Assembly: GCA_016937155.1 (NCBI GenBank)
Contig: JAFGWM010000062.1
Location: forward strand, 62,001 to 126,000
Direction of reading: 5' to 3'
DNA: 64,000 bases
Source: Deltaproteobacteria bacterium
GTDB lineage: Bacteria > Myxococcota_A > Polyangia > HGW-17
Shown: positions 55,418 through 63,761 of the stretch, piece by piece
How the letters are laid out: every line of letters starts with the position of its first letter
Numbering within the stretch: position 1 is the stretch's first letter
Notes under the pieces: generated by a model
Seen by the model: the letters and a program-made list of their open reading frames with translations, nothing else
Databases searched by the model: none
Told to the model about the DNA's origin: nothing
Program-made: the position numbers and the translations under genes

Positions 55418-56632
55418 TCAGGATTTGCGGTTTATTTCACCGGCTTTTGTGAGGGCTATTTTTGTGAGAACCGGTCCTGCTATTTCAAAAACTATTGATG
55501 TAGCGGTTACACTGGCCAGAACGCTGGAGCCTATCCACAGCGCATGAGGGGAACCGAGTGTGGTGGCTTCACTGCTTACCACAAGGGCAAGTCCTATTGC
55601 CACACCAGCCTGAGACAGTATCCCCATTCCGAGATATTTTCTTATATTATCATCAGCCTTTCCAATGGTGGCTCCAACATATGCTCCACCCATAAGTCCG
55701 AGACTTCTGCCAATAATATAGACCAGTCCAATACCACCGAGAGCAGGAAGTGCCCAGATATTCAGATGAGCTCCAGCCAGCATAAAAAACAGTACAAACA
55801 AAAGAGGCATCAACTGGGAAAGTGTTGATGAAATCCGGTGTCCTGAGTGTTCACCTGTAATATTCACAAAAACCAGTCCCACCATCATGTTTGTTAGAAT
55901 AAGTGAAAGATGAAGTTGATTGGAGATGCCTATTCCGAAAGCTATGGCACAAAAGGAAATAATTATTATCTCACTTGTCTGCTGGACTCTGGGGAGTATT
56001 TTTGCCAGTACAAATCCCATGGCTCCGCCAATTGTGAGACTCAGTACAATTTCTTTCCCAGCAGTTAAAAGTCCTCCAATAGTATTCACACTGGCACCGG
56101 GAATTTCAGAGGCGAGAATAGTTTTTGCCATGGCAAATGCAACACCGAAGATAATAATGGCGAGGCCATCATCAAATCCTACAACTGCATAAAGTGCCTT
56201 TGTCAGATTACCATGAGCTCTGTATTCCTGAATAACAGCTACAGTTCCTGCCGGTGCGCTGGCGGGTGCCATTGCTCCGAAAACCAGTGCCAGAGGGAGA
56301 TCCCTGGTAAACAGATATATGGCAGCTGTAACTATGAAGAAGGCTCCGAATGATTCAGCGAAAATTATTGTTACAATACCTTTTCCCTGTTTTCTAAGGG
56401 CTGGAATGGATAACTCCAGTCCAATTGTAATAGCCACATATCCCAGTACCATGTCAGAAATAAAATGCAGATTTCCTAAAAATTCATTGCTGAATACTTT
56501 TCCTATACTGCCCCCAAGAATAACTCCCGTGATCATATAGCCCACCAGTGAAGGAAGTCGCAGTTTCTTTGTTAAAAATCCCATCATATAGGCTGCACTT
56601 GCTGCAATAGCGATAATTAAAAATGGTTTCAT
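55418..56632 (-). CDS. CPA2-type cation/proton antiporter, membrane domain only
   Basis: 404 residues, about 12 TM segments, no RCK/TrkA-N regulatory domain. The start LRLPSLVGYMITGVILGGS and the conserved block APASAPAGTVAVIQEYRAHG then VVGFDDGLAIIIFGV place it in the monovalent cation/proton antiporter-2 family. It exchanges Na+ or K+ for H+. Since it lacks its own regulatory domain, control must come from elsewhere. The extended EIIA gene begins upstream, 12 bp away, and in other bacteria EIIA(Ntr) proteins regulate K+ transport, so direct control is plausible. Confidence 0.9.
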   Translation of the reverse strand: MKPFLIIAIAASAAYMMGFLTKKLRLPSLVGYMITGVILGGSIGKVFSNEFLGNLHFISDMVLGYVAITIGLELSIPALRKQGKGIVTIIFAESFGAFFIVTAAIYLFTRDLPLALVFGAMAPASAPAGTVAVIQEYRAHGNLTKALYAVVGFDDGLAIIIFGVAFAMAKTILASEIPGASVNTIGGLLTAGKEIVLSLTIGGAMGFVLAKILPRVQQTSEIIIISFCAIAFGIGISNQLHLSLILTNMMVGLVFVNITGEHSGHRISSTLSQLMPLLFVLFFMLAGAHLNIWALPALGGIGLVYIIGRSLGLMGGAYVGATIGKADDNIRKYLGMGILSQAGVAIGLALVVSSEATTLGSPHALWIGSSVLASVTATSIVFEIAGPVLTKIALTKAGEINRKS

Positions 56633-56644
56633 GGCAGCGATATC

Positions 56645-57454
56645 CTAATCTCTCAATTTTCCACCGAGATATTGAATTTCAGTTGTGAATACAAGGACGC
56701 CATCTCCTTCACTCAGAGGACCGGTTATACCTTCTATTCTTCTAACTGCTTCATTTGTAAGTCTTTTATCAACAATGAACCGTATGATTGTGCAGTAACT
56801 TTCCTGTTTCATATTCCATAAATCTGCGAAAAGCGGAACTTTGTGCAGATATTCCAGAGCACTTTTACCCTGAATTACAAGGGGGGGTGATGTTGCAATT
56901 CCCAGAATGTTTTCCAGAATATCCTCAAAAAACTCATCCCTTTCGAGAACAAGTTCCACAAGACTCTGTTCCTTTGGTTTCTCCCCGATTTCATCCGGGA
57001 GCATTTCCAGAAATCTTTTTCTGAGTTCATTGCTGGATTTTGAGGAATGAAGCATATCCAGATTGGATTTTTTCATCAGTGCTCTGGAAATTCCTGAAAG
57101 CAGCTTGAGATGATCCATTTTCTGACCTTCGGGAGCCAGGATAAACACAAACAGACTGGTATTTTCACCATCCATGGATTTGAAATCAATACCATGGGGA
57201 ACCACCACCAGACCTACAAAGAACCTTGAAAGACCATTAACTCTGCAGTGGGGTATGGCTATTCCTCCCCGGAAGCCAGTGGAACCAACCTGTTCTCTCT
57301 TTTCCAGAAGAGTGTAAACAGTGGATTTATTTATTTTATCCAAACTGAGATGTTCTTCTGAAATTTCAACTATTTTTTTAAGAAGTTCTTTCTTTGTTGA
57401 GATATCATCATCTATTACAACACATGATTCAGGTACAATATCTTTTACTTTCAT
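56645..57454 (-). CDS. EIIA (PtsN-like) protein with C-terminal extension
   Basis: 269 residues. Residues 1-~150 form a PTS EIIA-2/PtsN domain with the phosphorylatable His69 in GGIAIPHCRV and HLKLLSGISRALM. Residues ~155-269 are an extra region (LVLERDEFFEDILENILGIA, YCTIIRFIVDKRL) that resembles a P-II-like ferredoxin-fold signalling domain in shape only. A standard PtsN is ~150 residues. With no EI or HPr gene near, its phosphate source is unknown. It sits between the HTH-EIIA gene (14 bp) and the antiporter (12 bp), so it may gate that transporter. Confidence 0.8.
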   Translation of the reverse strand: MKVKDIVPESCVVIDDDISTKKELLKKIVEISEEHLSLDKINKSTVYTLLEKREQVGSTGFRGGIAIPHCRVNGLSRFFVGLVVVPHGIDFKSMDGENTSLFVFILAPEGQKMDHLKLLSGISRALMKKSNLDMLHSSKSSNELRKRFLEMLPDEIGEKPKEQSLVELVLERDEFFEDILENILGIATSPPLVIQGKSALEYLHKVPLFADLWNMKQESYCTIIRFIVDKRLTNEAVRRIEGITGPLSEGDGVLVFTTEIQYLGGKLRD

Positions 57455-57468
57455 CAGGATTTCCCTCT

Positions 57469-58188
57469 TTACAGTTCTATTGATAGATTTTTATGACTGT
57501 TTTTTATAAGTGTAAGGATTTCATTTTCACTTGAGGCTGCTTTCATTGCCTCTACTGTTCCTTCAGTACGAAGAAAATATGAAATTTTCGCCATAAGCCT
57601 TAGATGTGATGTGGTATCGCAGGCTGCTAAGAGTGCAAAAATATATGATTTTGCACCGTTCAGCGAGTTAAAGTCTGTTCCTTCAGGACATATTCCAATG
57701 ACCACAAGGTTTTTATCAATACCAGTTTTTTCAGGAGTTCTTGGATGGGGAAGAGCAATACCGTTTTCAACAGCAGTGGACATCATCTCTTCCCTCTGAA
57801 TCAGAGTCCTGATGAAATCTTCGCTGTTTTTTATTTCCCCTGTTTGTTCCAGCACACTTACCAGTTGTCTCAGGATATCACCGACAGAGCCGCTTTTGAG
57901 ATTTAATACTATATGGTTTACTGGAATCAGTTCCACAAGTGAATGTACTTTTTTAGCAGTATCTATTACATCCACCAGATTTGATTTTTTTACTGTCGTC
58001 ATTTTTGCCAGTATCCAGTCATCTATAATGGCTTTAACAAATCTCAACTGGCCTGAGATTTTTGCACTGGGTAAATCACCGGCCTTAATCATTCTCTGTA
58101 TTGTTCTTTCAGAAACCTTCAGGTACTCAGCTATTTCTGAAACAGTAAGTAATTCATCAATATTTCTGGTGTCGTTATCAATATCCAT
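57469..58188 (-). CDS. Helix-turn-helix/EIIA fusion regulator
   Basis: 239 residues from ATG 58188, with GGAG 7 nt upstream; the earlier starts at 58200 or 58233 are less likely. Residues ~12-60 are an excisionase/MerR-type helix-turn-helix (LTVSEIAEYLKVSERTIQRM, then LRFVKAIIDDWI). Residues ~85-239 form a fructose/PtsN-type EIIA domain with the phospho-His148 in GIALPHPRT. This suggests a DNA-binding protein controlled by PTS phosphate. Just upstream of its start lies a cluster of GACAAA/TTTGTC sites (58203-58229), a likely autoregulatory target. It heads the EIIA-antiporter operon. Confidence 0.85.
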   Translation of the reverse strand: MDIDNDTRNIDELLTVSEIAEYLKVSERTIQRMIKAGDLPSAKISGQLRFVKAIIDDWILAKMTTVKKSNLVDVIDTAKKVHSLVELIPVNHIVLNLKSGSVGDILRQLVSVLEQTGEIKNSEDFIRTLIQREEMMSTAVENGIALPHPRTPEKTGIDKNLVVIGICPEGTDFNSLNGAKSYIFALLAACDTTSHLRLMAKISYFLRTEGTVEAMKAASSENEILTLIKNSHKNLSIEL

Positions 58189-58202
58189 TTTTTTCTCCAT
58201 AA

Positions 58203-58229
58203 GACAAACAGCTTTTGTCGTTATTTGTC
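58203..58229. promoter_or_regulatory. GACAAA/TTTGTC repeat cluster upstream of the HTH-EIIA gene
   Basis: GACAAA (58203-58208) and TTTGTC (58214-58219) form a perfect inverted repeat with a 5-nt spacer. A second TTTGTC (58224-58229) is a direct copy 10 bp further on, about one turn of helix. The cluster lies 15 bp from the start codon of the excisionase-type regulator and could be its operator or that of another protein. The remaining 58230-58384 is an A/T-rich divergent region with no other clear site. Confidence 0.5.
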
Positions 58230-58384
58230 GCAATCTGACGCGAATAGAGCACCAGTGACTTCTTGTGTCAATATGTAAAATTAAAATTGTTTTTTTTTAT
58301 TTTATGTAAACCTGTGGACTCTAAAATGCTCTAATATACTGACCGATGTTTTTAGGGTTTTTTATTTAAGGAATTCAGGAATTA

Positions 58385-58939
58385 ATGATGAGTTTATCGA
58401 ATTCTGCAAGGCTTGAGAAAATGATTACCGAGGAGTCCAGAAAGTTTTACTTTGTGGCGTTTAGAATTCTGGGTGATCAGGATATGGCAATGGATGCATT
58501 CCAGAATTCCTGTGTAAATGCTCTTCGGAGTGTTGATAAGTTTCGTGGTGATTCCAGTCTGTCCACCTGGTTTTACACCATACTAATTAATTCATGCAGG
58601 AAACAGCTTTCTGTATGGAATCGACTGGGCAGGATTTTTTCCCATACTGATTTGGAACAGTTCAGTTCCAGCGAAGAAGATGATGGGGAAGATGCTGAAA
58701 AGTTAAAACTTGTTATGGATGAAGTCGGGAGGCTTTCCTCAAGGCAGAAGGAAGCAATGATTCTGAGATACAGTGAGGGATTATCTATCAGGGATATTTC
58801 GATAGTCATGGGTTGCAGCGAGGGTACAGTAAAATCTCACATAAACAGAGGTGTTACAGCCGTCAGAACAAGACTTTTTCCGGATTCTGAGGAAAGTGTT
58901 GATATGGCAGCAAGAGCATGTGACGCAAAATTGCACTGA
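58385..58939 (+). CDS. ECF-type RNA polymerase sigma factor
   Basis: 184 residues: sigma region 2 (~12-75, FYFVAFRILGDQDMAMDAFQ, KFRGDSSLSTWFYTILIN), a short acidic linker (SSSEEDDGEDAE), and region 4 (~115-165, LSSRQKEAMILRYSEGLSIR, DISIVMGCSEGTVKSHI). Regions 1 and 3 are absent, as in extracytoplasmic-function factors. It directs RNA polymerase to a small envelope regulon, held inactive by the membrane protein encoded downstream. There are two in-frame ATGs (58385 and 58388); AGGA precedes both. I could not identify a convincing self-promoter. Confidence 0.93.
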   Translation: MMSLSNSARLEKMITEESRKFYFVAFRILGDQDMAMDAFQNSCVNALRSVDKFRGDSSLSTWFYTILINSCRKQLSVWNRLGRIFSHTDLEQFSSSEEDDGEDAEKLKLVMDEVGRLSSRQKEAMILRYSEGLSIRDISIVMGCSEGTVKSHINRGVTAVRTRLFPDSEESVDMAARACDAKLH

Positions 58940-58980
58940 AAGGATCTGGTGGTGCAATGCTGATTCTGGAGAATGAAATT

Positions 58981-59445
58981 ATGGATGATATATGCATTAA
59001 ATTTGAGTCTGAAGTCAATGAAACAGGAACTGACACCCTTTCCACTGAACTTATGGAACATCAGAAAAAATGCAGTCGCTGTGGGCGCTATTTTGAAACT
59101 GTAAAGCACCTTGAGGAGGCAATGAAATATGAAGTTCCTCTCAGGAAGGAACCTTCAGAGGTTGCCGCAAGGGTTATAGAGATGATGAAGACCAGAGTTT
59201 CCATAAACTGGCAGCTTCCCTTGGTATCATTTTCTCTGAGTGTAAGCATACTGATGTTTTATATCTGGGGAGTTTTTAGTCCAGTCAATTTGGTGACTGA
59301 CCCGGGTAATAACAATAATACGGAAAAAACCTATCTTACTTTTCAGGCTGTACCGGTAAGTTCTGAAAATATTAAGGTTCCAGGAAATTTTTCTCCGTAT
59401 AAATCACTGGCTCAGGTTTTGAAGAAAGATGAAGGTATAAAATGA
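58981..59445 (+). CDS. Membrane anti-sigma factor with zinc-type motif
   Basis: 154 residues from ATG 58981, where GGAG lies 9 nt upstream; ATG 58957 is the longer option. The cytoplasmic N-domain has H27, C31 and C34 in MEHQKKCSRCGRYF, the HxxxCxxC signature of zinc-binding anti-sigma (ZAS) factors. One TM (~79-98) leads to a ~55-residue outside part with an NNNN run. It should bind and inhibit the ECF sigma factor until an envelope signal arrives. It lies directly downstream of the sigma gene, and its stop overlaps the start of the His-rich protein (ATGA). Confidence 0.88.
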   Translation: MDDICIKFESEVNETGTDTLSTELMEHQKKCSRCGRYFETVKHLEEAMKYEVPLRKEPSEVAARVIEMMKTRVSINWQLPLVSFSLSVSILMFYIWGVFSPVNLVTDPGNNNNTEKTYLTFQAVPVSSENIKVPGNFSPYKSLAQVLKKDEGIK

Positions 59446-60263
59446 CTAAACAGGGATGGATAGCAATATTTCTCGCAGTTACATTTCCCTCCACGGCCAT
59501 GCTGGTTATTCTCCTGATGGGGTCTAAAGAAAGAGGTGCACCCAAACCGCCTCTACCCCGGTGTCACGAACGACAACTGGCTATCCATCCCGCTGGTGGG
59601 GTACAGGGCCCTTGCTTTGGTCCTCATATGAAAATGCCTCCCCACGGAGATCATCATGGGAAGCCTCGAGGAGATCATCATGGAGCTGGTCCTCGTATGG
59701 AAGGGGATAATGGAAAACTGAAAATAATGGCAAAGGAACTTGGTCTGACAAAGGAACAGATAGATAAAATTATAAAAATTGAATCCGATGCTGATAAAAA
59801 AATGGAAAAAGCACAGAAACTTGTCACAGAGAAGGAACAGGAACTGTTCAAACTCATGAACAATGAAAAAACAGGTAAAATGGAGTTCAACAAACTGATT
59901 GATGAACTTGTGGGATTGAAGGGCAGTGTTGATAAGCTGCATCTGCTGGTTCCGATTGAAATCAGAGAAGTGCTGACGGATGAACAGCGCAAAAAGATTC
60001 ATGAAATTATGTCTAAAAAGCCTCCTGTTGGTCCAGGCATGGGTGGTGAATTTGGTCCGAAGAATTTTCCAGGACGTCACCACCCGGGCATGGGCCCCCA
60101 TGACAGGGGACATCACCATGGTGGTGGGATGATACCACCACATCATGGTTCAGATATGGGTCCCCATAAGGGTGCACATGGTCTGGCACCGGATCAAATT
60201 ATGCCACACAGACATCACGACCCCACGAATTTTAGGAAGCCCCAGCAGGAAATTATTAAGTAA
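59442..60263 (+). CDS. Membrane-anchored His-rich LTxxQ protein (Spy/CpxP/CnrX-like)
   Basis: 273 residues. An N-terminal TM anchor (~6-26) leads to a periplasmic domain. His clusters flank a helical core: residues 62-80 (PHGDHHGKPRGDHHG, coded by a repeated 14-bp DNA unit) and 213-259 (GHHHGGG, PHHGSDMG and others). The core has two LTxxQ motifs, LTKEQ (102-106) and LTDEQ (178-182), as in Spy, CpxP, ZraP and CnrX, which sense metals or unfolded proteins. With the sigma and anti-sigma genes directly upstream and a 4-bp overlap, the locus resembles the metal-responsive CnrYXH arrangement. It is probably the signal sensor; the metal is unproven. Confidence 0.82.
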   Translation: MTKQGWIAIFLAVTFPSTAMLVILLMGSKERGAPKPPLPRCHERQLAIHPAGGVQGPCFGPHMKMPPHGDHHGKPRGDHHGAGPRMEGDNGKLKIMAKELGLTKEQIDKIIKIESDADKKMEKAQKLVTEKEQELFKLMNNEKTGKMEFNKLIDELVGLKGSVDKLHLLVPIEIREVLTDEQRKKIHEIMSKKPPVGPGMGGEFGPKNFPGRHHPGMGPHDRGHHHGGGMIPPHHGSDMGPHKGAHGLAPDQIMPHRHHDPTNFRKPQQEIIK

Positions 60264-60311: not shown

Positions 60312-61604
60312 ATGAAACTCCAACTAACTGTTTTTTCTATATGCTTTGTTTTTTGTATGACCGCATGGGCGGAATATACACTTTATGCGGAATATGATGA
60401 AAATGGAGATTCCATGACAAGTGTGGAAATTGAGGAACATACGAATCTTGCAAGATGTTTGTGTGATGAGGATGTTTCATCTGATGATGAGGATTACTCA
60501 TATTATCTGGGAATGGAGTATGATGGTGATTATGATGGTAGTGATAACTATGCATACATTGGTGCAGACTGTTCAAACACTGCGGTATCACTGGAAAACT
60601 GTGCATATCTCGGATATACAAATGTCAACAGCTTATCCTCGAGTCTTTGGTATATTCCGGTTCCTGTTAATTTCGTTGTTGATCCCTATGATGGAGAATG
60701 TTCCGAGGGGACCGGTTCGAATACAGTTCACATTTTCTCATCTGTTGAGAGCAGGACAAGTGAATACAGTTATACAATCAGTTTTGATACCAAAAGACCA
60801 AGCGTTCCATATGATCTGACGGTTTCAGGTGGTGAAAATGCACTTAACGTAAGCTGGGATGCAGTTGATCCATCTGACGAAGGTGTTGAATATTACAATG
60901 TTCTTTGTATGAGAGACGGTTCTCCTTCTGAAGTTTCAAAAACAAGCAAAGCTAACTGGGTAAGCACCATGGAGGTTTGTGGAAAAGTTCTCACACTGAA
61001 TGAAAAAAAAAATAATTTTAAGGATTCAACTGGATGCAACCTGTATGGAGTGGAGGAGGGTGCTGATCCTGAAAAATGTTTTGTATGTGGTAGTGTTTCC
61101 AGTTCCACAAACAGTGTTCGGATAAGCGGTCTTGAAAATTATGCTGACTATGATGTGGCAGTTGTGGCTGTTGATGAAAATGGTAATGTTTCAGAGGTGA
61201 GTGAGGTGCTGACAGGAACTCCGGTTCCCACAACGGATTTTGCTGAGGCCTATAATGAAATGGGAGGCAGTGCAGATGGTGATTACTGTTTTGTTGCCAC
61301 TGCGGTCTTTGGAAGCAAGTCACATGCTGCTGTGGCAGTCCTCAGGGTTTTCAGAGATCGCTTTCTTCGAGGAAATTATATGGGAGAGGCCTTTATAAAA
61401 TACTACTACTCCCACGGCGAAAAATGGGCCGATTTTGTTAAGGGAATTGCTCCTCTGATGTATCTGGTGAAGTTTCTTCTGGTACTTGTTTCTGGTTTTA
61501 TCTTCCTGGTTATGGATACGTTTATAATGCATCTTCTGTTACTGCTGATTCTGGTTTTCCAGCTACGTTCATATTACAGTTTTACATATTCTCTTCATAA
61601 ATAA
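60312..61604 (+). CDS. Secreted Cys-rich protein with fibronectin-type domain and CFI-box C-terminus
   Basis: 430 residues with signal peptide (LTVFSICFVFCMTAWA). The N-terminal ~160 are acidic (Asp/Tyr-rich) with several cysteines. Residues ~160-305 look like a fibronectin type III module (RPSVPYDLTVSGGENALNVS, VAVVAVDENGNVSEVSEV) with extra Cys. The C-terminus starts CFVATAVFGSKSHAAVAVLR and continues with FRDRFLRGNYMGEAF and a TM pair: the CFI-box sorting signal, here CFVAT not CFIAT. The protein is therefore probably processed or anchored at the surface. It follows the His-rich protein by 48 bp and may be in the sigma factor's regulon. Confidence 0.75.
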   Translation: MKLQLTVFSICFVFCMTAWAEYTLYAEYDENGDSMTSVEIEEHTNLARCLCDEDVSSDDEDYSYYLGMEYDGDYDGSDNYAYIGADCSNTAVSLENCAYLGYTNVNSLSSSLWYIPVPVNFVVDPYDGECSEGTGSNTVHIFSSVESRTSEYSYTISFDTKRPSVPYDLTVSGGENALNVSWDAVDPSDEGVEYYNVLCMRDGSPSEVSKTSKANWVSTMEVCGKVLTLNEKKNNFKDSTGCNLYGVEEGADPEKCFVCGSVSSSTNSVRISGLENYADYDVAVVAVDENGNVSEVSEVLTGTPVPTTDFAEAYNEMGGSADGDYCFVATAVFGSKSHAAVAVLRVFRDRFLRGNYMGEAFIKYYYSHGEKWADFVKGIAPLMYLVKFLLVLVSGFIFLVMDTFIMHLLLLLILVFQLRSYYSFTYSLHK

Positions 61605-61663
61605 GCACATTGGATACACTTTACAGATTTGAAATCCTCCTGATGGTTTGCTAAAACATGTGT

Positions 61664-61685
61664 GTGGTGATGCATGTGTCACCAC
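61664..61685 (+). other. Hairpin upstream of the DUF2892-like gene
   Basis: GTGGTGA (61664-61670) and TCACCAC (61679-61685) form a perfect 7-bp stem with an 8-nt loop containing TGCA. It lies 35 bp before the ATG. No U-tract follows, so it is more likely an operator or leader structure than a terminator. Confidence 0.35.
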
Positions 61686-61720
61686 TGGTATGTGAAAACA
61701 AATCTAAAAGGAGCAATATT

Positions 61721-61915
61721 ATGGCGGAAAGAATACAGCGACTAATGATGGCCGGTATGATTTCACTGGGGCTTATACTTTATCAGACCGGCTTCAAATG
61801 GGGTCTTTATGTGGACTGGTTTGTGGTATTTATGGTTATCGTGTGGGCTGTCACGGGATTTTGCCCCAGTCTGTATGTTTTAAAAAAATCCGGTATGCCA
61901 TCTGAAACTGAATAG
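61721..61915 (+). CDS. DUF2892-like small membrane protein
   Basis: 64 residues from ATG 61721 with AAGGAG 7 nt upstream; the longer frame to 61658 covers the hairpin. Two TM segments (MMAGMISLGLILYQTG and FVVFMVIVWAVTGF) end in GFCPSLYVLKKSG, close to the GxCPxY motif of DUF2892/YgaP-type inner-membrane proteins, which occur near rhodanese and sulfur-handling genes. Only the TM part is present, with no rhodanese domain. The single Cys could be reactive. It lies between two Cys-rich exported proteins. Confidence 0.75.
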   Translation: MAERIQRLMMAGMISLGLILYQTGFKWGLYVDWFVVFMVIVWAVTGFCPSLYVLKKSGMPSETE

Positions 61916-61948: not shown

Positions 61949-62653
61949 ATGAAACCTTTAAAAATATTACTTTTATTTATTTTAATTCTTTCGGTTTTTT
62001 CTATGTGTCACAGGGAAAACTCCAGTACAACTGAGCGCAGAAAAAAAAGAATGTGGCAAAAAGAAAATCACTGCAGTACTGACAATGACTGTGTAGCTGT
62101 TGATTCCTCCATTGAATGCTGCTCTGGCTGTGGTTCCAGTATTTTCGACTTCACTGGAGTTTCCAGGAAAGGTGCCCGACTCAGACTGAAGTATATTGAT
62201 TCTCTGAACTGTAGTGAGAAAAGCTGCCCTTTAGTTAACTGTGCTGTGACGGTAAAGTGCGTGGATGCTGTGGCCGTATGTGCAAGTGGCCGATGTGCTA
62301 TAAAGCGCCAGATAAGAAAAACCTGCACTGATTCTCTGCCTTCATCACTCCACTGGAGACATATGAATTCATGTGAATCGGATTCAGACTGCTTTGTAAC
62401 TGAAGATGAAAATGAATGTAAAAAGAAGTGCCCATCTCCGATCTCAAAAATAATAGCTGTTAACAGGGAGGGAAAAGTAAGAAAATTCTCCTGGAAACTT
62501 GAAAACTGTAAACCTGAAATTCCATATGAGAATCCCACCTGTGAAAACCCCATGCTTTCAGAGACCTATGCTGAATGTATTTCAGGAAAATGTGAACTTA
62601 AAACTCTAAAGAAATCCACGGACTCTCCCATGGGAACACCGGAAGTTGAGTAA
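61949..62653 (+). CDS. Cys-rich exported protein with internal duplication
   Basis: 234 residues. The start MKPLKILLLFILILSVFSMC has a weak lipobox (Cys20, Met at -1), so lipidation is uncertain, but export is likely. Two tandem homologous units follow (~40-120 and ~130-225). Each opens C-x-SD/TD-x-DC (CSTDNDC and CESDSDC), has a I-x-VxR-x-GK-like middle and ends CxSGxCxxK (CASGRCAIK and CISGKCELK). Many cysteines imply several disulfides. I recognise no named family; the C-SD-DC ... SG-C pattern is frequent in myxobacterial exported proteins. It lies 33 bp behind the DUF2892 gene. Confidence 0.65.
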   Translation: MKPLKILLLFILILSVFSMCHRENSSTTERRKKRMWQKENHCSTDNDCVAVDSSIECCSGCGSSIFDFTGVSRKGARLRLKYIDSLNCSEKSCPLVNCAVTVKCVDAVAVCASGRCAIKRQIRKTCTDSLPSSLHWRHMNSCESDSDCFVTEDENECKKKCPSPISKIIAVNREGKVRKFSWKLENCKPEIPYENPTCENPMLSETYAECISGKCELKTLKKSTDSPMGTPEVE

Positions 62654-62666
62654 AATTTCGTAACAG

Positions 62667-63761
62667 TTATTTTGCTGTTGTTGTAAGTATTTCCCCGGTA
62701 TAAACCACTTCAAAGGCATTTCCTGGAACGTTTCTGAGTTCACTGAGATCCTCATCATTCCATCGGCTGTCCGGTTCTCCACTAAGATACCAGTTGCTTC
62801 CGTTATCAGCTACTATCATACCGTATTTTTTCAGAGCTCTCAGTATCACCTGTACCGTGGGGTTGAATCCGTTTATATCAAAATCCTGTTTAAGTCTGAG
62901 TCTTAAACCCATGGGTGGAACATCAGTACTTGTATTTGATGAGGCAAAATGAGTTGCAGGATGTATGTAGCCTGCCTGTGATGAAGAAACTGTAAACCGT
63001 ATGGCATGATTGATTTCCCCATCCACCATTGTTTCCTCATAACGGATAAGACCCGGAAGTATGGGAAGACCCGCTGCATCGGCACTTGTCCATCCATCAG
63101 GCCTCAAACCATTATCAGAAAGATCAAAGATGGCCCCGCTTCCGGCATACCATGTTTCACCAGAGTTTTCACTGCTTCCCGGAGGCCATGCATAGTAAAG
63201 TTCATAGAGTGTGCATGTATCGGTATCCAGCATTATTATATGTCTGTCCCCTGTGCTGAGGTCTCCACCTTCGATGAGAGGACTTTCAGGGATGGGATAA
63301 GGTCCGGCATCGCTTTCTGATGAGTACTCAAAATCCACAAAACTGAGAGGAGTTGTAGCGTCCACCAGCATGAAAGGAATACCAATTGGTGCTCCATCCC
63401 ATTCAGTTCCGAAATCCGGATGAAGGTAGCTTTCTGACCCAATGGAATTAATGAAATTATCAGAATTTTCATGAAGTGGATATTCAGAAATATCCGTGTT
63501 CCATGGATTGTCAGCAGGAAATATCTGACAACCGCCAACTAATGCACCAGAGCCGGTGTTGTTGTTTGTGGTATTATTGGTCGAGTTGTTGGTTGCATTG
63601 TTTGTTACGTTATTTGTCGCATTGTTTGTGGTGTTATTGGTCGAGTTATTGGTCACGTTGTTGGTTGAATTGTTTGTTGCATTATTGGAATTTGAAGAGG
63701 AATCATCACATCCACCAGCCAGTACAAAAAACACAGCCATAAAAAAAAGGTAATTTTTCAT
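62667..63761 (-). CDS. Lipoprotein with NNxT spacer repeats and a large unrecognised domain
   Basis: 364 residues. Lipobox LAGGC (Cys18) is followed by 11 units of NNxT (residues ~26-69), a flexible spacer lifting the domain off the membrane. The main domain (~75-364) begins CQIFPADNPWNTDISEYP and includes DRHIIMLDTDTCTLYELYYA, IRFTVSSSQAGYIHPATHF and a GSNWYLSGEPDSRW end. This order, with a conserved NPWN start, looks like a beta-rich extracellular domain, but I cannot name its family. The start is ATG 63761, with GGGAG 8-9 nt upstream. It is convergent with the Cys-rich gene, 13 bp away. Confidence 0.75.
   Translation of the reverse strand: MKNYLFFMAVFFVLAGGCDDSSSNSNNATNNSTNNVTNNSTNNTTNNATNNVTNNATNNSTNNTTNNNTGSGALVGGCQIFPADNPWNTDISEYPLHENSDNFINSIGSESYLHPDFGTEWDGAPIGIPFMLVDATTPLSFVDFEYSSESDAGPYPIPESPLIEGGDLSTGDRHIIMLDTDTCTLYELYYAWPPGSSENSGETWYAGSGAIFDLSDNGLRPDGWTSADAAGLPILPGLIRYEETMVDGEINHAIRFTVSSSQAGYIHPATHFASSNTSTDVPPMGLRLRLKQDFDINGFNPTVQVILRALKKYGMIVADNGSNWYLSGEPDSRWNDEDLSELRNVPGNAFEVVYTGEILTTTAK
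63555..63686 (-). repeat. NNxT tandem coding repeat (11 units of 12 bp)
   Basis: Eleven consecutive 12-bp units encode Asn-Asn-x-Thr with x variable (Ala, Ser, Val, Thr, Asn). Because each unit is 12 bp, gain or loss keeps the frame and only changes spacer length. Base-level variants such as GTTATTGG and GTTGTTTG alternate along the array. Confidence 0.8.

Follow-up and report, generated by a model that had tools for sequence, protein, structure and literature searches.

A three-gene sigma factor module

The window is the whole 64-kb stretch of DNA that was analysed (G000:C25:62001-126000 in genome coordinates). It carries three tightly packed open reading frames side by side on the forward strand, where the sequence-only reading had placed three coupled genes. 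The ATG of the third overlaps the stop codon of the second by four bases. Judged from sequence, the genes for the sigma factor, the anti-sigma factor, and the putative sensor are real and form a module:

58385..58939 (+), ECF sigma factor, 184 residues, regions 2 and 4 only (from open reading frame, domain models, and relatives)
58957..59445 (+), membrane anti-sigma factor, probable start at 58981 (154 residues)
59442..60263 (+), predicted membrane-anchored sensor of Spy/CnrX fold, 273 residues, two LTxxQ motifs

Divergent from the sigma operon is a gene that fuses an excisionase-type HTH to a PTS EIIA-2 domain (57469-58233, −). It adjoins the gene of a second EIIA-2 protein (56645-57454, −). 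Near both is the gene (55418-56632) of a multi-TM protein that resembles cation/proton antiporters. Beyond the module, 62667-63761 (−) encodes a lipoprotein whose spacer is a long Asn/Thr repeat (NNTTNN); this style occurs in other putative lipoproteins of the family as well, e.g. L084:783-1952.

Sigma factor and anti-sigma factor

The first protein has the makeup of an ECF sigma factor, as had been proposed. Its length falls in the range of about 160–200 residues, it contains only regions 2 and 4, and its scores against Sigma70_r2 (PF04542, 45 bits), Sigma70_r4_2 (PF08281, 52 bits), and TIGR02937 (82 bits) all exceed the cut-offs.

The second protein carries the motif HQKKCSRC (Hx3Cx2C) and a single TM at residues ~74–97, both of which the sequence-only reading had recognized. 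Its translation probably starts at 58981 (M9), because the relatives begin there and the ligand Cys5 then lies near the N-terminus. The zinc set C5-H27-C31-C34 is invariant in four sequences. Having Hx3Cx2C and an upstream cysteine in the N-terminal cytoplasmic domain, the protein belongs by sequence to the zinc-type class I (ZAS/ASDI) anti-sigma factors, and the search against Pfam and NCBIfam models gave no anti-sigma match. The AlphaFold2 model of this protein is too poor for use (pLDDT 50). About 48% of the membrane-bound class I anti-sigma factors have Hx3Cx2C, for which a static, structural role has been suggested (PMC7406223). Hence, the zinc motif alone does not set this protein apart.

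Architecture of the third protein

The third protein is divided into four parts:

residues 1–28, TM
residues 29–91, His/Gly/Pro-rich flank
residues 92–193, predicted four-helix core
residues 194–273, His-rich tail

It contains 23 histidines, which make up 12.7% and 16.2% of the two flanks vs 2.0% of the core. The core hosts the motifs LTKEQ (102–106) and LTDEQ (178–182), so that the earlier description of a TM-anchored protein with two LTxxQ motifs between His clusters is borne out. Among orthologues, the His/Met/Pro/Gly composition of the arms is kept, while their sequence is not.

A single-sequence AlphaFold2 model, with pLDDT of about 80–88 in the core only, has helices at residues 89–99, 104–139, 146–177, and 180–191. 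Its best Foldseek matches in the PDB are ZraP, CnrX, CpxP, NccX, and Spy. The probabilities are mostly 0.96–1.0 (Spy 0.75), and the E-values are weak, being 0.12–0.44 for ZraP, CnrX, CpxP, and NccX. A PDB search with the window sensor sequence alone gave no meaningful match; a profile of four orthologues found a VirG-like protein (3.8e-7), Spy (2.9e-6), and, weakly, CnrX (0.07). Against Pfam Metal_resist (PF13801), the window protein scores 25.4 bits, just below the cut-off of 29.2, and two orthologues score above it (36.1 and 48.2 bits). With its hooked hairpin of four helices and two LTxxQ motifs, the predicted core has the features of the Metal_resist/LTXXQ families. The prediction that it is a four-helix hairpin of the ZraP/CnrX/CpxP/Spy fold is thus well supported by model and profile. 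The sequence-only reading had suggested a Spy/CpxP-like core and staked its case on a fold related to Spy and CnrX; the predicted structure agrees with it.

We then compared the core with the metal site of CnrX, whose sequence was checked against 2y39. In an ungapped extension of a low-probability alignment, CnrX His42, His46, His119, and Met123 correspond to Leu93, Ala97, Val170, and Ile174 of the sensor, and only Glu63 has an equivalent, Glu114. Four of the five CnrX ligands are thus missing from the core, and across the orthologues no invariant His, Cys, or Met was found in it. Because of these two absences, a metal, if the sensor binds one, would most likely sit outside the core, in the arms.

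The TM is the best-conserved stretch in both membrane proteins. Over four orthologues, with shuffled TMs giving about 10%, mean identity in the sensor is 53% for the TM and 33% for the core; in the anti-sigma factor it is 43% for the TM, 23% for the ZAS part, and 16% for the linker. The periplasmic C-terminal tail of the latter, VPxxLSxYxxLAxxL-like in three genomes, likewise stands out from its surroundings by its conservation. This pattern suggests helix–helix signalling. From the conservation of the TMs and the tail, we infer that the two proteins contact each other through both.

Conservation and distribution of the module

The best-matching sigma factors come from four whole genomes related to that of the window, two from the same family (G001, 45% identity; G003, 37%), G049 from another family of the class (38%), and G005 (39%). 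The order sigma, anti-sigma, sensor is identical in G001, G003, and G049. In G005 the contig ends directly behind the sigma gene, and the order beyond is cut off. The order is therefore the same in four of the four uncut copies, one of them from another family. The sequence-only reading had made its case depend on the three genes staying together in relatives, and they do.

An anti-sigma profile run over the class (318 genomes) gave strong scores only in G000, G001, G003, and G049 (184–225 bits; the next score is 32 bits). Within the class, the close group is thus a rarity of patchy occurrence and no general feature. When GTDB r220 contigs were searched with peptide patterns of the sigma factor, no close relatives turned up, only remote ECF factors of 21–26% identity. 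The earlier reading thought of a new switch for this lineage; the form found here is rare, and the kind of switch is already known.

More distant trios are widespread. Of the 28 next-best sigma-profile matches from 379 phylum genomes, 25 have a Spy-like match near the sigma gene on the same contig, and inspection at gene level found a Spy-like neighbour for two further next-best matches. Every phylum copy examined (L194-L233) has an anti-sigma factor lacking Hx3Cx2C, and the third protein mostly has an N-terminal signal peptide. G029, G025, and G041 have more distant trios whose anti-sigma factor is of zinc type; in the last two, a hydrophobic stretch anchors the third protein at its N-terminus, and genes for TolC, an adaptor, and a MacB-like protein follow.

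Other arrangements were also seen. In L198, L203, L205, L208, and others, Spy-like genes flank the sigma/anti-sigma pair on both sides. The genome of the window holds a second module of different order (L089:8935-10279, G000:C76:292934-294278), in which a Spy-like protein with a signal peptide (HSMGYGRHSMKHRG) is followed by a sigma factor and a short protein; the latter has one hydrophobic stretch and may be an anti-sigma factor.

A predicted promoter upstream of the sigma gene

A predicted promoter element precedes the sigma gene:

58306..58334 (+), predicted autoregulatory ECF promoter: −35 box GTAAACC (58306-58312), 16-nt spacer, −10 box CTCTAA (58329-58334)

GTAAACC-N16/17-CTC, a predicted element newly reported here, precedes the sigma gene at a matching position in five of five genomes, with the −35 box 76–104 bases before the start codon. 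GTAAACC alone has a chance of about 1% of occurring in a given 200-bp stretch. The full motif has one match in the 64-kb window vs 0.01 expected, and no second copy was found there. By means of this motif, sigma activity should be readable with a simple reporter.

The core motif occurs once only in the G049 genome, in front of the sigma gene. In the G000 genome it occurs 11 times; only the sigma copy stands in front of a gene, and the matches outside the sigma operon lie inside genes. Because the sigma copy is the only one fronting a gene in G000, the switch looks self-controlled and local, which remains a prediction from sequence. A wider motif-based regulon is not claimed, as the match totals are near those of a reversed-pattern control. 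In G005, the motif also precedes a TolC-MacA-like-ABC set (L291, G005:C599, with TolC, adaptor, and MacB-like genes) and lipoprotein genes, which we regard as leads only.

Downstream genes

Three further genes follow the sensor gene:

60312..61604 (+), exported Fn3/CFI-box protein, distant to the MXAN_2561 family; probable co-transcribed output
61658..61915 (+), small membrane protein with a weak YgaP-like TM match; possible operon tail
61949..62653 (+), putative Cys-rich lipoprotein made of two similar halves; possible operon tail

The first of them had been counted among Cys-rich exported proteins possibly under the control of the switch. With 61 bits for the CFI-box (cut-off 40), it is more aptly called an exported fibronectin-III/CFI-box protein. 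It lies on the same strand as the sensor gene, 48 bp behind it, and no terminator-like site was found on the + strand between the two or anywhere before 61790. In G003, the fourth gene is its best homologue, with 57% identity. The window and G003 fourth-gene copies are sisters in the tree (support 90/94), apart from truA-linked paralogues. The fourth gene can be compared in only two genomes of the family with an uncut contig. The module of G001 ends at a contig edge and the sole copy found in that genome is a truA-linked paralogue, so it was rejected as proof of linkage.

On these grounds of strand, spacing, lack of a terminator-like site, and the G003 fourth gene, control of 60312-61604 by the switch through predicted co-transcription is plausible, and its product probably belongs to the output. 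The claim does not extend to all three genes: counterparts of 61658 and 61949 were not found behind the G003 module, and the window has no second motif. For MXAN_2561, the literature collection searched contained no paper. As a separate observation, truA and an outer-membrane-type protein adjoin the 60312-protein paralogue at L125:5212-6654 (G000:C31), L124, L126, L127, and L132, an arrangement conserved in several genomes of the order.

Proposed mechanism and its alternatives

We consider it rather likely that the module is an autoregulated ECF switch, held by the anti-sigma factor, released by the sensor, and driving its own operon together with 60312. At rest, the single-pass anti-sigma factor would hold the sigma factor with its cytoplasmic zinc-type domain. 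The partner anchored in the inner membrane would expose a periplasmic Spy/CnrX-type hairpin between disordered His/Met/Pro-rich arms, and would pair with the anti-sigma factor via the TM helices and probably also via the periplasmic C-terminal tail of the latter. A soft transition metal on the arms, or a damaged protein in the Spy-like cradle, may alter this pairing. The released sigma factor would then transcribe its own operon, including 60312-61604, from the GTAAACC-N16/17-CTC promoter.

As to the signal, envelope damage has nearly an even chance in our estimate. Its hints are the Spy-like core, the lack of a CnrX site, the MacAB-TolC neighbours in G181, G025, and G041, and the cirYZ-spy operon of P. 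vulgatus. A metal signal is a serious possibility that stays somewhat below an even chance. Two hints at it are indirect: the sensor arms are His/Met-rich, and in G049, 59 bp behind the module, lie genes for a CopZ-like protein and for a P-type copper ATPase that has a CPC motif (TIGR01511, 620 bits; cut-off 397). In G103, a related trio precedes an ACR3 arsenite pump. A more specific version is tentative: an ECF metal switch of a new class, in which a Spy fold lacking the CnrX site carries disordered His/Met-rich arms serving as a metal antenna (copper being the best guess), a zinc-type anti-sigma factor is signalled via a specific TM pair, and an exported Fn3/CFI-box protein is the output. 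Directly 3′ of trios in three genomes (L194, L086, and L087) lie TolC-type, adaptor, and MacB-like ABC genes, and a link between trios and efflux may be general.

Of the alternatives to sensor-driven release, the one that survives best makes the third protein a product of the switch. It would be a membrane-tethered Spy-like chaperone, perhaps with CpxP-like feedback on the anti-sigma factor, and the stimulus would be sensed elsewhere, e.g. by anti-sigma proteolysis. In Phocaeicola vulgatus, the sigma/anti-sigma/spy operon is autoregulated, has a narrow regulon, and is induced in colitis, and its Spy is interpreted as a protective chaperone (PMC13114119). The mostly signal-peptide-bearing, soluble-looking Spy proteins of the phylum and the core lacking the CnrX ligand set would also suit such a role. 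However, the protein of the window group keeps an uncleaved TM as its most conserved part, which is unusual for a plain chaperone, and its His-rich arms have no known chaperoning role. We hold this alternative to be rather unlikely. It is improbable that the anti-sigma zinc domain itself senses redox state or metal in the cytoplasm, as in RsrA/ChrR, with the periplasmic protein as an accessory. The invariant C-H-C-C set agrees with this, but the prevalence and suggested static role of Hx3Cx2C argue against it, as does a ZAS part less conserved than the TM. That an ordinary sigma/anti-sigma pair merely lies beside an unrelated His-rich membrane protein is very improbable: the close group occurs in only 5 genomes of the class, but its order is constant in all uncut copies, another family included, the genes overlap, and a Spy-like neighbour accompanies most next-best phylum matches too.

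Comparison with known systems

In logic, the closest studied systems are, by our comparison, CnrYXH and the P. vulgatus cirYZ-spy operon. CnrYXH of Cupriavidus metallidurans, which senses Co/Ni, likewise combines an ECF sigma factor, a single-pass anti-sigma factor, and an anchored periplasmic protein of four-helix fold. The path from periplasm to anti-sigma to sigma, proposed here for the window module, has been reported for it (PMC7689651). Different from the window module, its order is anti-sigma, sensor, sigma (Y-X-H), and CnrY is a class II, non-zinc anti-sigma factor, whereas the window protein has a zinc class I-type motif. The window sensor has His-rich arms unlike CnrX, most CnrX ligands are replaced in it, and no RND pump genes lie behind the module. 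The sequence-only reading, which saw a resemblance to CnrYXH logic and suspected a different sensor, was therefore apt: the module departs from CnrYXH itself in order, anti-sigma class, and metal site.

Fold and two LTxxQ motifs are common to the window sensor and CpxP, Spy, and ZraP of the LTXXQ and Metal_resist families. The latter three are soluble, reside in the periplasm, are linked to two-component systems, and lack the conserved TM anchor. The phylum-wide trios (L194-L233) are like the module in order and sensor fold, and have related sigma factors (about 104–136 bits to the sigma profile). They differ in the anti-sigma motif, and mostly have a signal peptide in place of the QGWIAI..FPTTAL-type anchor of the window group. 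Such sigma/anti-sigma/Spy-fold trios are common in the phylum and hardly studied; for PF13801 together with sigma factors, the literature collection searched contained no paper. By its published description, the Azospirillum brasilense operon of RpoE8, a hypothetical protein, and a 'periplasmic heavy metal sensor' has the same three-gene order with a Metal_resist-type third gene, and is up-regulated on RpoE6 overexpression (PMC12826043).

The likeness to cirY-cirZ-spy lies in order and published description: sigma factor, anti-sigma factor, and Spy are encoded in one operon that controls its own expression, has a narrow regulon of envelope genes, neighbouring ones among them, and is strongly induced in colitis (PMC13114119). 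The window genes have this order, with the four-base overlap and no + strand terminator-like site before 61790, and their promoter motif suggests that they may be self-controlled and have a narrow regulon. The Spy of cirYZ-spy, from another phylum, is read as a periplasmic chaperone, whereas the window protein is TM-anchored and has His/Met-rich arms. CnrYXH and cirYZ-spy, the experimentally examined examples found, thus point to different roles of the third protein, metal sensor in one and chaperone in the other. By joining a CnrX-like anchor to a core lacking the CnrX metal site, the window module may allow the two roles to be separated.
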